From Antrihabitans auranticaus (GTDB lineage: Bacteria; Actinomycetota; Actinomycetes; Mycobacteriales; Mycobacteriaceae), in contig NZ_JAEMNW010000003.1 in the NCBI RefSeq assembly GCF_016481275.1, positions 186,001-250,000 of the forward strand: DNA of 64,000 nt, given 5' to 3'. Each line of letters opens with the position of its first letter. Position 1 is the first letter of the stretch. Shown here in pieces: positions 23,811-27,526 of the stretch. The translations under genes were made by a program, and so were the position numbers. The notes under the pieces are model-generated. The model ran no database searches, was not told where the DNA came from, and saw only the letters and a list, made by a program, of their open reading frames with translations.

Positions 23811-25367
23811 GTGCGCACAGCATCGTCGTTTCGCCACACGCTGACTCAGCTGCTTCAAGCCCGGTTTCCGCTGATCTATGTCGAATCGCACGAGGAACAA
23901 CGCGTGCTCGCGGAGATCGACGCCGTGCGGTCCGCGCTGAAGACCCCGCGGTCGATGTGGCTGTGGTCCGCGACGCAGGGCTTGCGGCGTCCGGGCGAGG
24001 CGACCGAACGCGGCACCCTCGAACCCGCTGCGGCACTGAGCGCGGCCGGCCGGATTCACGAGCGGGCAGTGTTCGTCTTCTGCGACCTGCATGCGTTCTT
24101 CGGCGACGGCACGCGACCACCGGACCCGGTCGTCGTGCGGTGGTTGCGCGACGCGGTCCGCGACTTCCGCGCGGGCGAGGCGGCTCGCACGCTTGTCCTC
24201 GTCGGGCCCGTACTGCGAATTCCTGCCGAGTTGGAGAAGGACACAACGGTTGTCGACTTCCCGCTGCCGCGCGAGGACGAAATCCGGGAGCTGCTCGACG
24301 GAATGATCGTCGAGAACACCGGGTCCGTGGCGATCATGATCGACGACCAGGGCCGCGACCGCCTGACCAAGGCCGCGCAGGGACTCACGCTCGCCGAGGC
24401 CGAGAATGCGTTCGCCCGAGCCATGGTCGCCGACGGCCGCCTGACCGCGGACGACGTCGAGCTCGTGCTCGCCGAGAAAGCCCAGACGATCAGAAAGTCC
24501 GGACTGCTCGAGATCGTCCGCACGCCGGTCGCTCTCGCCGACGTCGGCGGCCTGGACACGTTGAAAGCCTGGCTGGTGAAGCGGCAGGACTCATGGCTCG
24601 AAGAAGCCGCGCGCTACGGCCTGCCTGCACCCAAGGGCGTCCTGATCACCGGCGTACCCGGGTGCGGAAAGTCCATGACGGCCAAGGCGGTTGCCTCCGC
24701 CTGGGGCCTACCGCTGATCCGGATGGATATCGGAAAGGTGTTCGCCGGTTTGGTGGGTGCGAGCGAGCACAACATGCGCGCAAGCATCGCCACGGCCGAG
24801 GCGTCGGCACCCTGCATCATGTGGATCGACGAGATCGAAAAGGGCTTCGCCGGTGCGGGATCCGCGGGTGACACCGGGACCAGCGCACGCGTCTTCGGCA
24901 CCTTCCTCACCTGGATGCAGGAGAAGACCGCGCCGGTGTTCGTCATCGCGACGGCGAACAATATCGACCGGTTGCCGCCGGAATTCTTGCGCAAGGGACG
25001 CTTCGACGAGATCTTCTTCGTCGACCTGCCGACTCCTGCCGAGCGCGAGGAGATCTGGCGACTACACCTGGACAGACGCGTCCGCAGCGGACCCGCCGCC
25101 GGGCTGAAGGTGACCGAGGTCCTCCTCGAAGACCTCGCCACCGCATCCAGCGAGTTCTCCGGCGCGGAGATCGAGCAAGCCGTCATCGCGGGCCTGTTCG
25201 ATGCATATTCCGACCGGCGGCCATTGGACGCAGCCGACCTGTTCCATGCGCTGGAGAACACAGTTCCGCTGTCGACGACACAACACGACCAAATTGCCGA
25301 CCTGCGCGAATGGGCCAGCGTGCGAGCCGTATCCGCAACGGGTGTGACGTTTCCCTTACAGCCCTGA
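23811..25367 (+). CDS. Ycf46-type AAA+ ATPase
   Basis: About 518 aa. The N-terminal part begins FRHTLTQLLQARFPLIYVESHEEQR, typical in spacing of cyanobacterial and plastid Ycf46 proteins (pieces FPLIYVESHEEQR). An inactive RecA-like domain follows to about residue 230, then an active AAA domain with Walker A GVPGCGKSMT (about 281-290), Walker B IMWIDEIEKG, sensor 1 ATANNIDRLPPEF and Arg-finger region RKGRFDEIFFV. Ycf46 AAA proteins are poorly characterised and linked to photosynthesis regulation in cyanobacteria. The GTG at 23811 or 23802 is the likely start. It heads a five-gene operon and is divergent from the stressosome block. Confidence 0.85.
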   Translation: MRTASSFRHTLTQLLQARFPLIYVESHEEQRVLAEIDAVRSALKTPRSMWLWSATQGLRRPGEATERGTLEPAAALSAAGRIHERAVFVFCDLHAFFGDGTRPPDPVVVRWLRDAVRDFRAGEAARTLVLVGPVLRIPAELEKDTTVVDFPLPREDEIRELLDGMIVENTGSVAIMIDDQGRDRLTKAAQGLTLAEAENAFARAMVADGRLTADDVELVLAEKAQTIRKSGLLEIVRTPVALADVGGLDTLKAWLVKRQDSWLEEAARYGLPAPKGVLITGVPGCGKSMTAKAVASAWGLPLIRMDIGKVFAGLVGASEHNMRASIATAEASAPCIMWIDEIEKGFAGAGSAGDTGTSARVFGTFLTWMQEKTAPVFVIATANNIDRLPPEFLRKGRFDEIFFVDLPTPAEREEIWRLHLDRRVRSGPAAGLKVTEVLLEDLATASSEFSGAEIEQAVIAGLFDAYSDRRPLDAADLFHALENTVPLSTTQHDQIADLREWASVRAVSATGVTFPLQP

Positions 25368-25399
25368 CGACCGGTCCGATTCGGGTGAATAATCGCGGC

Positions 25400-25843
25400 G
25401 TGAGCATTTCGATCATTCTCGTGCCATTAGCGGTTGCCGCGGCCACGAAGGCGGCGTCGATGCGCAGCGGTGCCGGGAACGCGTGCACGGTGTCGACGCG
25501 AATGCGCGATCCGAACCTGCTGCGAACCGCTCTGCCGGACACCGGCGCCAGGACTACGCTCCAGTCTCCGGATTCGATCGATGCCGAATGGGAAGGCCTC
25601 GCAGCCCAGTTGCGCCGCGATCCCGACGGCGTGTGGTCGGCCCACTTCACCGGTACGAAAGACGCTGCACGCTGCACCGAGGTCGTGCAAGCCATCGATA
25701 GGGCGTACGGCCTCCGGGTGCAGGAAGAAGTGATCGCGAAGTTGAAAGATCGTGCGCCCGCGGCGGGGATGACACTGCTTTCGGAGACCGCGAATTCCGA
25801 CGCATCGGTGACGATGGTGCTCGAAGTGCGGGGTGATCGGTGA
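25400..25843 (+). CDS. Ycf35/DUF1257-like protein
   Basis: A 147-aa protein. Segment by segment it resembles the Ycf35 (DUF1257) pattern: an early (R/D)-x-NLLRTAL(P)DTGA segment, a middle part, and a C-terminal helix-strand unit AIDRAYGLRVQEEVIAKLKD then TLLSETANSDASVTMVLEV, which parallels the closing region of DUF1257 proteins. The match is divergent and made by eye, strengthened by its place between a Ycf46 AAA gene and a DUF2997 gene, partners known to co-occur with DUF1257. The GTG at 25400 is chosen because it begins the conserved VSISIIL strand. Confidence 0.6.
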   Translation: MSISIILVPLAVAAATKAASMRSGAGNACTVSTRMRDPNLLRTALPDTGARTTLQSPDSIDAEWEGLAAQLRRDPDGVWSAHFTGTKDAARCTEVVQAIDRAYGLRVQEEVIAKLKDRAPAAGMTLLSETANSDASVTMVLEVRGDR

Positions 25844-26076
25844 TGGCTACCGAACGCGTCCGCATCGAAGTCGTGATCGGACCCGATGGGTCCGTGACTG
25901 CCGAAACCCACCGGGCAGTCGGCGAAGAGTGCCTGCCGTACATCCAGGTCCTGGAGGACCTGCTCGACGCAACAACGGTCGACAGCTCGTACACCGACGA
26001 TTGGTGGAAGTCGGCGCCGGTACAGGTTCGAACCGACGAGTCGGCGCACATCACGGCTCGCGACGGGCTCGGCTAG
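25843..26076 (+). CDS. DUF2997-family protein
   Basis: A 77-aa protein. IEVVIGPDGSVTAETHRAVGEECLPYIQVLE fits the DUF2997 pattern of I-x-(I/V)-x-PDG-V-x-E, G-x-x-C and L-E-x-LG (pieces IGPDGSVTAE and GEECLPYIQVLEDLL), followed by the YTDDWW end. The single Cys is the conserved one. Its ATG overlaps the stop of the Ycf35-like gene (TGATG), so the two are translationally coupled. Function is unknown; families of this type accompany Ycf46 and DUF1257 in cyanobacteria and some other bacteria. Confidence 0.7.
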   Translation: MATERVRIEVVIGPDGSVTAETHRAVGEECLPYIQVLEDLLDATTVDSSYTDDWWKSAPVQVRTDESAHITARDGLG

Positions 26077-26081
26077 CGGGA

Positions 26082-26879
26082 ATGTACTACCAGGCGCGAC
26101 CGACACCACAGATGCTGCTCGCAGACTCCTCGTGGCGTCTGCGGAACAGCCTGTGGATGCTCGCCGTCATCCTCGGTTGCGGAATGCTGACGTGGGCAGC
26201 GTTCCTCTACATCGGGATGCGCGCGCGAAACAAGATCTGGCTCGGCGCGGCTGCCGTCTACGCGGTGTTGTTCATCGGCTTCATCGTCTGCATCGAGCTC
26301 GCCGGACCGTCTTCCGACGAGATCGTCGCAGGCGCCACCCGGACGCCTACCGAAGAAACCATCAACTCATGGGCGTCCGGTTTGCTGGTCGCAACCTGGA
26401 TCGGCGGGATCGTCCACGCCGGAATCGTGCGACGGCAGTACCTGCAGTGGCGTGCGCAGAACGCCGCGCCATGGTGGGAAGGTTCGCCGGCGACCAACCC
26501 CGTTTATCCGCCACCGCTGTATTACCAACCCGTCCAACATAATTCGACGCACGCCGCGCCACTGTTCGACAACCGGCACTATTGGGGGCCGCCGCAGCCG
26601 GCCCCCGCGGTGAACCTCGGCAAGCCCGCTGTCCGCGTCGACGTCAACCGCGCGGGGCACGCCGAACTCGCGGGACTGGGCCTCGACGAAACTGTCGTCA
26701 CAGAACTGCTTGCTGCCCGCGAGCGTCGTGGCGGGTTCACGTCCATGCAGGAGTTCGCGGCTGCTGCCGGGCTGAAACCCCATGAGCTGAGCGCGGTCTC
26801 GGCGCGTATCACCCTCACACCACCACCACCCGTTCAGCAGCACGGCTTTCAAGCGCGCGGTCGGCGGCTGGACCTGTGA
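26082..26879 (+). CDS. Membrane protein with C-terminal helix-hairpin-helix domain
   Basis: A 265-aa protein. Hydrophobic helices are near residues 26-47 and 55-76, a third possible one near 103-120, then a Pro/Tyr/His-rich linker (NPVYPPPLYYQPVQ). A ComEA-type helix-hairpin-helix follows (VDVNRAGHAELAGLGLDET, then RRGGFTSMQEFAAAAGL). HhH domains usually bind nucleic acid without sequence preference, or mediate protein contacts. It is 6 nt after the DUF2997 stop and overlaps the radical SAM start as GTGA, so it is part of the same operon. Confidence 0.78.
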   Translation: MYYQARPTPQMLLADSSWRLRNSLWMLAVILGCGMLTWAAFLYIGMRARNKIWLGAAAVYAVLFIGFIVCIELAGPSSDEIVAGATRTPTEETINSWASGLLVATWIGGIVHAGIVRRQYLQWRAQNAAPWWEGSPATNPVYPPPLYYQPVQHNSTHAAPLFDNRHYWGPPQPAPAVNLGKPAVRVDVNRAGHAELAGLGLDETVVTELLAARERRGGFTSMQEFAAAAGLKPHELSAVSARITLTPPPPVQQHGFQARGRRLDL

Positions 26880-27526
26880 CCGCGCCCGCCCTTGGCGAAC
26901 CCGGCACGCTCCGGATAGCCCGCACCTTGACCTCGACGGTATCGGAAGGGCCGGGTCGGCGGTCGGCGGTGTGGGTGCAGGGCTGCACGATTCGCTGCCC
27001 AGGTTGTTTCAATCCGCAGCTCTGGACCAGCCGCGGTGGCGTCGTCGTCGACACCGTCGAATTCTCCGAGACCACGCTGCGCGAGGCGCTTGCTGCCGGC
27101 GTCGAAGGCGTGACGCTGTTGGGCGGCGAACCTTTCGAGCAAGCCGCACCGCTTGCGCTACTCGGAGAGCGATTTCGCGCCGAAGGTTTGTCGGTGATGA
27201 CGTTCACCGGCTACGAGTACGCCGACCTCCTGACGTGGTCCGCCGAGCGCGCCGACATCGCGGCGTTGCTCGACGCGACCGACCTCCTCGCGGACGGGCC
27301 TTTCCTTGCCGATCGATTGGATTCGACGCGGCCGTGGATCGGCTCGACGAATCAGTCGCTGCGCCCACTGACCGAGCGCTACCGGAACGAGCTTGCGCAC
27401 GACCTGCCTCCCGATCGTGTCGAGGTCACAATCGACCCCGCCGGGCGAATTGCCGTGAACGGCTGGGCGGACCTGGATGCACTCGACGGTTTGCTCGACG
27501 GACTCGGCACGCGGGCACGAATGTAG
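26876..27526 (+). CDS. Radical SAM activase-like enzyme (4Fe-4S single-cluster)
   Basis: A 216-aa radical SAM protein with the CX3CX2C cluster motif at Cys37-Cys41-Cys44 (QGCTIRCPGCFN), which ligates a 4Fe-4S cluster and cleaves S-adenosylmethionine to a 5'-deoxyadenosyl radical. TLLGGEPFEQAA is the GGE SAM-binding motif. Size and motif order resemble glycyl-radical-enzyme activases such as NrdG and PflA, but no glycyl-radical enzyme gene is nearby. Translational overlap with the HhH protein gene suggests it acts on, or with, a product of this operon. Confidence 0.85.
   Translation: MTAPALGEPGTLRIARTLTSTVSEGPGRRSAVWVQGCTIRCPGCFNPQLWTSRGGVVVDTVEFSETTLREALAAGVEGVTLLGGEPFEQAAPLALLGERFRAEGLSVMTFTGYEYADLLTWSAERADIAALLDATDLLADGPFLADRLDSTRPWIGSTNQSLRPLTERYRNELAHDLPPDRVEVTIDPAGRIAVNGWADLDALDGLLDGLGTRARM

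Follow-up and report, generated by a model that had tools for sequence, protein, structure and literature searches.

A five-gene unit joining a Ycf46-type AAA ATPase to a helix-hairpin-helix protein and a radical SAM enzyme in Antrihabitans auranticaus

Proteins of the Ycf46, Ycf35 (DUF1257) and DUF2997 families occur from plastids to phages, and our literature searches returned no molecular function for them. In a 64,000-nucleotide stretch of the actinobacterium Antrihabitans auranticaus (RefSeq assembly GCF_016481275.1, contig NZ_JAEMNW010000003.1, positions 186,001 to 250,000; hereafter the window), a first reading made from the sequence alone assigned three consecutive genes to these families, followed by genes for a helix-hairpin-helix (HhH) protein and a radical S-adenosylmethionine (radical SAM, or rSAM) enzyme. 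The locus raises the question of whether these five genes belong together and, if they do, what such a module might do with a radical enzyme. The five plus-strand genes are as tightly packed as the sequence-only reading described (positions 23811 to 27526 of the window; Table 1). Their junctions are, in gene order, a 32-nucleotide (nt) gap, a TGATG overlap, a 5-nt gap (previously given as 6 nt) and a GTGA overlap.

A conserved five-gene unit

We scanned one genome per species with an alignment of the AAA protein, which yielded at least 587 matching stretches, at least 537 of them encoding relatives. The genome loci studied here are the best 80, ranked by similarity to the window AAA protein and two relatives, a choice that deliberately over-samples the window's clade. 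Scripts called open reading frames (ORFs) from the earliest start codon following a stop, which may make N-termini too long but leaves C-termini unaffected. In a tree of 84 AAA proteins, comprising those of the 80 scanned loci (one of which has two) and of the window, L036 and L037, 36 proteins including the window's fell on one branch with an SH-aLRT support of 100. A strong rSAM match was present at 34 of the 36 loci of this clade versus 2 of the 48 others (L082 and L089). The two clade loci that lack one are L070 and L063; the cluster of the former starts at a contig edge, and the AAA gene of the latter stops beside a contig end. DUF1257-like genes were found at 34 clade loci, DUF2997 genes at 32 and same-strand HhH genes at 33, and all five genes were present at 30 loci, in six gene orders. 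Five of the incomplete loci (L061, L063, L065, L070 and L072) lie near contig ends. The cluster, which occurs in bacteria of soil and gut, spans Actinomycetota, Bacillota, Melainabacteria, Planctomycetota and Bacteroidota, the last three represented by metagenome-assembled genomes (MAGs) or uncultured contigs only. Across the clade, the pairwise distances of the five families correlate in all ten pairs (r from 0.62 to 0.82; permuted maximum, 0.24).

Closer to home, the cluster is sparse. The window's DUF2997 protein had a match in 2 of 201 genomes of its taxonomic family, and DUF2997 scored over the cut-off in 2 of 296 genomes of a phylum sample that includes the window; the AAA gene occurs in one of four genomes of the genus. 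The second family genome (G422, locus L036) carries the same five genes at 46 to 69% protein identity. The right-hand neighbor gene of the cluster has relatives of only 31 to 35% identity, in two of the three sister genomes of the genus.

A tblastn search against 72,556 plasmids recovered five actinobacterial records carrying the cluster at about 54 to 56% identity, three of them on plasmids typed as conjugative. Four are annotated in the window's order, as AAA, hypothetical, DUF2997, HhH or hypothetical, and 4Fe-4S protein. The fifth labels genes two to four "hypothetical" and the last nrdG; these were equated by eye with the genes of the other records, on size, order and sequence. Because 30 of the 36 clade loci are complete and five plasmid records repeat the layout, the cluster goes beyond chance, and we have very little doubt that the five genes form one conserved, co-inherited unit. 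The sequence-only reading had joined an rSAM enzyme and an HhH protein to the Ycf46/Ycf35/DUF2997 module in this way, and had taken the arrangement to be undescribed. Consistent with the latter, literature searches on Ycf46 with radical SAM, and on radical SAM with AAA ATPase, HhH and NrdG, returned no matching paper, in a coverage that takes in few subscription journals.

Table 1. Features of the five-gene cluster, in positions of the window
Feature	Positions	Strand	Evidence
AAA ATPase, Ycf46-type, 518 aa	23811..25367	+	Pfam AAA 108.8 bits
DUF1257/Ycf35-like protein, 147 aa, hydrophobic N-terminal segment MSISIILVPLAVAAA	25400..25843	+	profile-profile 98.6%, E 8.4e-15; AlphaFold2 pLDDT 86.7
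DUF2997 protein, 77 aa, predicted beta-beta-alpha	25843..26076	+	PF11211 46.9 bits; model pLDDT 71.4
Cys30 codon of DUF2997 (G-x-x-C)	25930..25932	+	Cys kept in 82/84 homologues
HhH protein, 265 aa, hydrophobic segments and C-terminal HhH domain	26082..26879	+	HHH_3 32.6 bits
Helix-hairpin-helix domain, residues 183-242 of HhH protein	26628..26807	+	Pfam match
GRRLDL, C-terminal tail of HhH protein (R-x-x-[DE]-hydrophobic-COOH)	26859..26876	+	tail pattern
NrdG-like radical SAM (rSAM) enzyme, 216 aa	26876..27526	+	Fer4_12 103.2 bits; TIGR02491 88.1 bits, under cut-off
CX3CX2C of rSAM, residues 37-44	26984..27007	+	direct reading; 34/34 clade rSAM
rSAM C-terminal extension with N-G motif (33/34 clade members), weakly DUF2997-like	27413..27523	+	sequence/profile comparison

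Identities of the encoded proteins

Profile searches bore out most of the family assignments of the sequence-only reading. The first protein is an AAA ATPase, and its Ycf46-type character is reflected in identities of 44 to 47% (best segment, nearly full length) with the AAA proteins encoded beside ycf35 at 12 cyanobacterial loci; Ycf46 is presumably the right name for these proteins. It is 69% identical to the AAA protein of L036 and 34% identical to that of L037. Its single Walker A motif sits in the C-terminal half, and a Walker A was present in 82 of 82 AAA proteins, in none of them in the N-terminal part. A degenerate AAA domain in the N-terminal half, comparable to the inactive one that precedes the active domain in the FtsH ternary conflict systems discussed below, had no profile support (0.5% in an hhalign comparison of the N- and C-terminal parts), although the former lacks a Walker A. 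Distant AAA relatives covering at least 80% of the L064 query occurred in 613 of 676 matching plasmid records, which were mostly enterobacterial and conjugative.

The assignment of the second protein to DUF1257/Ycf35 stands only as a remote one. The protein has no Pfam and no NCBIfam match, and PF06868 was unmatched in all 17 non-actinobacterial clade homologues scanned (alignment A7); in a wider set, 43 of 82 homologues matched it at an E value of 0.01 or below. Iterated profiles seeded with the window and L036 proteins recruited 102 of 16,202 ORFs. All 102 share a strand with a Ycf46-type AAA gene, and for 101 of them that gene is less than 3 kb away. Comparing 34 sequences from strong-rSAM loci with 67 others by hhalign gave a probability of 98.6% (E value, 8.4e-15) and a score of 80.2, where 20 column-permuted controls reached 7.7 at most, both sets having come out of one iterated profile. 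The actinobacterial and cyanobacterial sets compared directly gave 10%, and a bridge runs from the actinobacterial set to other clade members (99.4%) and from those members to the cyanobacterial set (83%). Since profile-profile comparisons link the sets while the direct Pfam search fails, we judge the kinship to be real but remote. The AlphaFold2 model of the protein is confident (pLDDT 86.7), and a Foldseek search of solved structures returned a best E value of 3.7e-3, to KA1-like domains among others, with no match at 1e-3 or below. A hydrophobic N-terminal stretch was found in 21 of 30 clade DUF1257-like proteins with a readable start, in 0 of 12 cyanobacterial, 7 of 9 other genomic and 3 of 40 viral ones, counts that over-long ORF starts may have inflated here as for the HhH proteins below.

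The DUF2997 match is above its cut-off (46.9 against 24.1 bits), as is the HHH_3 match of the fourth protein (32.6 against 27 bits), whose hydrophobic segments agree with its earlier description as a membrane HhH protein. Among 44 HhH proteins of the clade, 37 contain a hydrophobic 19-mer. The HhH gene stands immediately upstream of the rSAM gene at 27 of the 32 loci that have both, and across the 163 loci scanned the HhH profile was matched outside the clade once. The N-terminal parts of these proteins vary, with a TPR region in L057 and a GYF_2 domain in L064. ComEA-type proteins similarly combine a hydrophobic segment with an HHH_3 domain; they differ from the cluster's HhH proteins in that the latter have a conserved C-terminal tail, described below, and the window protein does not reach the comE model (E value, 0.077; 13 bits). 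At one locus (L060:2305-7347), seven tandem HhH genes, every one of them with the tail, precede the rSAM gene.

For the fifth protein, the CX3CX2C motif noted in the sequence-only reading is present and Fer4_12 scores over its cut-off; the Radical_SAM family model falls short (24.9 bits; cut-off, 29.5). Judged by motif and fold, the protein belongs to the radical SAM superfamily. Its best NCBIfam model is NrdG, at 88.1 bits against a cut-off of 126.1. CX3CX2C, GGEP and GSxNQ occur in all 34 clade rSAM proteins, and 33 of them have a C-terminal extension with an N/S-G-hydrophobic motif. By eye, 24 of 28 NrdG-like rows have no comparable extension, and a related-looking one occurs in L015, L016, L019 and L029. 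In the rSAM tree, which has several long branches, the 36 cluster rows require two label changes and the 28 NrdG-like rows three. The extension bears a likeness to the DUF2997 hairpin, with a score of 30 where none of 20 permuted controls exceeded 6.5 but a probability of only 60%, and we treat this as a weak lead rather than a claim.

We looked for the partner that an NrdG-type activating enzyme would serve. The Gly_radical family is absent from the window's genome, and NrdD (PF13597) was found in neither the window's genome nor G422, compared with 6 of 14 controls; a regular expression for the NrdD glycyl site was uninformative, as it matched nowhere, not even near the NrdG-like genes themselves. 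Because the genome has neither NrdD nor the Gly_radical family, the cluster enzyme appears, by partner as by cut-off, not to be an ordinary NrdG. It shares CX3CX2C, GGEP, the Fer4_12 fold and its size with NrdG and the pyruvate formate-lyase activating enzyme, and differs from them in the C-terminal N-G extension and in that no glycyl radical partner was found in the searches above.

Genes for rSAM enzymes also occur in other settings. Three loci of other actinobacteria (L039, L040 and L041) have a different NrdG-like rSAM with a Hanks-type kinase and, depending on the locus, FHA, PP2C or ClpB-like AAA genes. At planctomycete and verrucomicrobial Ycf46-type loci (L091, L097, L116 and L118) a larger, different rSAM gene lies upstream of the AAA gene. 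In a Treponema MAG (L089:3144-9785), rSAM, Ycf46-type AAA and DUF2997 genes lie beside a contractile injection system (tail-sheath, tube or baseplate genes), and on a Treponema succinifaciens plasmid (L232:4348-8572) rSAM and Ycf46-type AAA genes lie beside a baseplate V gene.

A C-terminal tail on two of the proteins

Alignment of the clade HhH proteins revealed a conserved ending, [G/E]-R-x-hydrophobic-D-hydrophobic-COOH, which follows the HhH domain and a variable linker; the stretch from the HhH profile match to the protein end runs from 12 to 33 residues. From this alignment we wrote the pattern R-x-x-[DE]-[LIFVMWY], anchored at the last residue, and since it was written after the alignment had been viewed, the plasmids are its sole held-out test. 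Among the clade HhH proteins 42 of 44 fit it (35 of 44 in the tighter form [GE]R..D), and the two misses, in L067 and L069, are one residue longer or shorter; the opposite-strand HhH gene of L063 also encodes the tail. The same tail, often as RGGRTLDF, ends 28 of 36 clade AAA proteins, compared with 0 of 34 DUF1257-like, 0 of 32 DUF2997 and 0 of 34 rSAM proteins of the clade. Of the remaining ORFs of the 163 loci, only 70 of 16,157 fit, and 48 of these 70 are AAA proteins.

On the plasmids, the tail was present on 4 of 4 HhH and 4 of 4 AAA proteins; four distinct sets were tested because two of the five records share one HhH protein accession, and two of the four (L229 and L230) are close relatives. 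Across 71 tailed genes, Arg codons of six kinds and Asp or Glu codons of four kinds were used and the downstream sequence varied, so the tail is conserved as protein and not as DNA. This tail, common to the HhH and AAA proteins, is a new observation of our analysis, and it probably serves as an interaction signal.

Outside the clade, the strict tail was found on AAA proteins from 9 of 35 non-cyanobacterial genomes, 0 of 12 cyanobacteria and 10 of 80 viral loci, as well as on that of L037; most cyanobacterial AAA proteins end in a QRMEF-like variant. Other tailed proteins at clade or related loci comprise one that does not match the HhH profile (L048), an Mrr endonuclease-domain protein (L057) and a rhomboid-like protein (L118). 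Beside the cluster of L057 (L057:5015-8549), the TPR-HhH protein ends in GRAVEW and the Mrr endonuclease-domain protein in GRRLDV. In L118, the rhomboid-like protein encoded before the AAA gene ends in RIRRLEL, as the AAA protein does.

A candidate membrane machine and its rivals

Two published systems resemble the unit. The cyanobacterial and plastid Ycf46-Ycf35-DUF2997 module has the same AAA family and a homologous DUF1257, whose gene lies directly downstream of the AAA gene at 12 of 12 cyanobacterial loci. Strong rSAM, HhH and DUF2997 matches were all absent from within these 12 loci. One report describes a DUF2997-ycf35-fed7 gene cluster in which fed7 encodes an Fe-S ferredoxin (PMC4284462); the five-gene clade instead has an rSAM enzyme and an HhH protein. 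The clade's DUF1257-like proteins differ further in missing PF06868 (the window's and 17 of 17 tested) and in their mostly hydrophobic N-termini, and the cyanobacterial AAA proteins in lacking the strict tail. The closest published theme is that of the FtsH ternary conflict systems, where a MoxR-vWA pair accompanies a classical-AAA protein and a standalone rSAM whose presumed substrate is a small protein from a nearby gene (PMC7159879, eLife 2020). The classical-AAA protein and standalone rSAM are common to both, but here no AAA_3 (MoxR) match over the cut-off lies within about 130 kb on the contig (the nearest is at 78 kb, the cluster at 210 to 213 kb), and no vWA domain occurs among the five genes, to which that search was confined. 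The five-gene unit is a variant of the Ycf46 module and may be a class of its own.

We tentatively favor, with somewhat less than even confidence in the model as a whole, the reading that the products of the five genes form a single membrane-associated AAA+ machine whose rSAM enzyme modifies a protein of the complex. Its core would be the AAA motor with the DUF1257-like and DUF2997 proteins. The HhH protein, and the AAA protein in those members that have a tail, would dock through their tails on one shared site of the tail-free partners, the receptor lying in the trio of rSAM, DUF1257-like and DUF2997 proteins. The HhH protein would be a client or adaptor because it is encoded directly before the rSAM enzyme at most loci, can occur in tandem copies and has a variable N-terminal part; these variable domains could serve as inputs. 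ATP hydrolysis would load, release or pull the tailed client. The rSAM enzyme, with one [4Fe-4S] cluster and SAM, would use radical chemistry to modify one of the machine's proteins rather than activate a glycyl radical enzyme, and its likeliest target would be the tailed HhH protein encoded just upstream. The proposal of the sequence-only reading that the AAA motor and the small proteins present a substrate to the rSAM enzyme is likewise hypothetical. The purpose of the unit may be stress tolerance, by analogy with cyanobacterial ycf46 and fed7, or conflict over mobile DNA. It is possible, if doubtful, that the unit exemplifies a distinct class of mobile membrane machines, in which an AAA+ motor works with interchangeable tagged sensors or effectors (HhH, TPR-HhH or Mrr nuclease), an rSAM that has no glycyl-radical partner acts on the tagged proteins to modify them, and the tag is the address for docking and modification.

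Several observations weigh against this machine. The hydrophobic segment is absent from 7 of 44 clade HhH proteins and from 9 of 30 clade DUF1257-like proteins with a readable start. Although L077 has the rSAM gene, no HhH gene was found in its range. The window's own AAA protein, like that of L036, is untailed, while its HhH protein ends in GRRLDL. Outside the clade, the 46 genome loci have DUF1257 in 23 cases, DUF2997 in 12, both in 11 and a strong rSAM in 2; the 80 viral loci have DUF1257 in 44, DUF2997 in 39, both (the AAA-DUF1257-DUF2997 triad) in 36 and a strong rSAM in 5. The rSAM is therefore dispensable for the core, because the triad occurs without a strong rSAM match at most viral and most non-clade genome loci. 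The tail does not follow DUF1257 consistently either. With a regular expression widened after the data were seen, non-clade genomes showed the AAA tail in 19 of 24 cases with DUF1257 and in 3 of 23 without; the strict pattern gave 7 of 24 and 2 of 23 (p 0.14), and viral loci reversed the trend (widened, 2 of 44 with and 15 of 36 without; strict, 1 of 44 and 9 of 36). We rejected correlation with DUF1257 as a guide to the tail receptor, genomic and viral loci being inconsistent.

The rSAM enzyme could instead act on DUF2997, whose G-x-x-C would then carry the modification or the radical, leaving the HhH protein as an anchor. DUF2997 is small and encoded in the operon. Three of its residues, the first Gly and then the Gly and Cys of G-x-x-C, are each conserved in 82 of 84 homologues (the exceptions being, respectively, L177 and L179, L199 and L077, and L139 and L140), with two of them invariant in an alignment of 61 of the 84 (A4); the hairpin likeness of the rSAM extension also fits. 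But the residues are kept with or without an rSAM nearby, and because phage-contig DUF2997 proteins with no rSAM in range retain G-x-x-C, the motif is not rSAM-specific. We regard this reading as somewhat unlikely. Three phage-contig ORFs (L128, L177 and L179, two of them identical) fuse DUF1257 to DUF2997. L077 is the only clade locus that lacks an HhH gene and is not near a contig end; its DUF2997 protein (L077:2390-2620) has a tail-like ARMLDL just before the C-terminus.

On the improbable side, too, is a conflict system of mobile DNA, in which membrane HhH or Mrr-nuclease proteins would strike incoming DNA or a competing plasmid, with the AAA and rSAM proteins as the trigger. The patchy spread of the DUF2997 and AAA genes in the family and genus, the clusters on plasmids typed as conjugative and the tailed Mrr endonuclease-domain protein of L057 all accord with it. 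Yet the PADLOC defense models gave no convincing component match: the AAA protein merely resembles IetA, TRIP13 and mad8, and the rSAM has a marginal pVip match (E value, 0.041). A defense-island test of the flanks, which covered the clade loci with a GC content of 58% or less, gave no clear signal, only scattered PADLOC hits (20/34 clade loci, 121/165 flanking proteins), and the 25 of 181 flanking Pfam families that were listed are mostly housekeeping or general.

Alternatively, the tail could mark proteins for entry into the AAA pore; the AAA protein's own tail would then be an autoinhibitory pseudo-substrate, and the HhH protein a substrate to be pulled or remodeled. AAA+ unfoldases commonly engage C-terminal tags, and the tail ends a variable stretch that follows the HhH profile match. 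This reading is nevertheless quite unlikely, given that the AAA protein itself is tailed in most clade members and in some triads without an HhH match.

We also think it distinctly doubtful that the unit is a module of stress or redox maintenance like the cyanobacterial one, with the rSAM enzyme standing in for ferredoxin as the Fe-S partner. The cyanobacterial reports place ycf46 in a stress operon and DUF2997-ycf35 beside fed7, and tie both ycf46 and fed7 to stress tolerance (PMC4284462, PMC7496141), but rSAM and ferredoxin are different protein families and the cluster's distribution is sporadic. An ordinary NrdG that happens to lie beside unrelated genes is very improbable: NrdG is the best NCBIfam model and one plasmid copy is annotated nrdG, but the score is under the NrdG cut-off, NrdD and Gly_radical are missing as described, and the unit is conserved across phyla.

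The unit would bring in a line of rSAM enzymes that function in genomes where no glycyl radical enzyme is known. The five-gene version also offers handles on its three older families, namely a tag that can be mutated, an enzyme whose product can be weighed, and tandem and plasmid copies for comparison.

Two further features lie in and around the clusters. The sequence-only reading placed a stressosome next to the unit, and one is plausible because genes for an STAS/RsbR-like protein (STAS 55.4 bits) and an HATPase_c_2 protein (77.8 bits) lie divergently upstream; it does not appear to be part of the unit, since the neighboring gene lists at the other loci inspected differ. In L073, L074, L082 and L121, an extra gene between or beside the AAA, DUF1257 and DUF2997 genes encodes a protein of 221 to 264 aa. 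These proteins share an N-terminal motif by eye, some have a hydrophobic C-terminal end, and they are perhaps a membrane partner.

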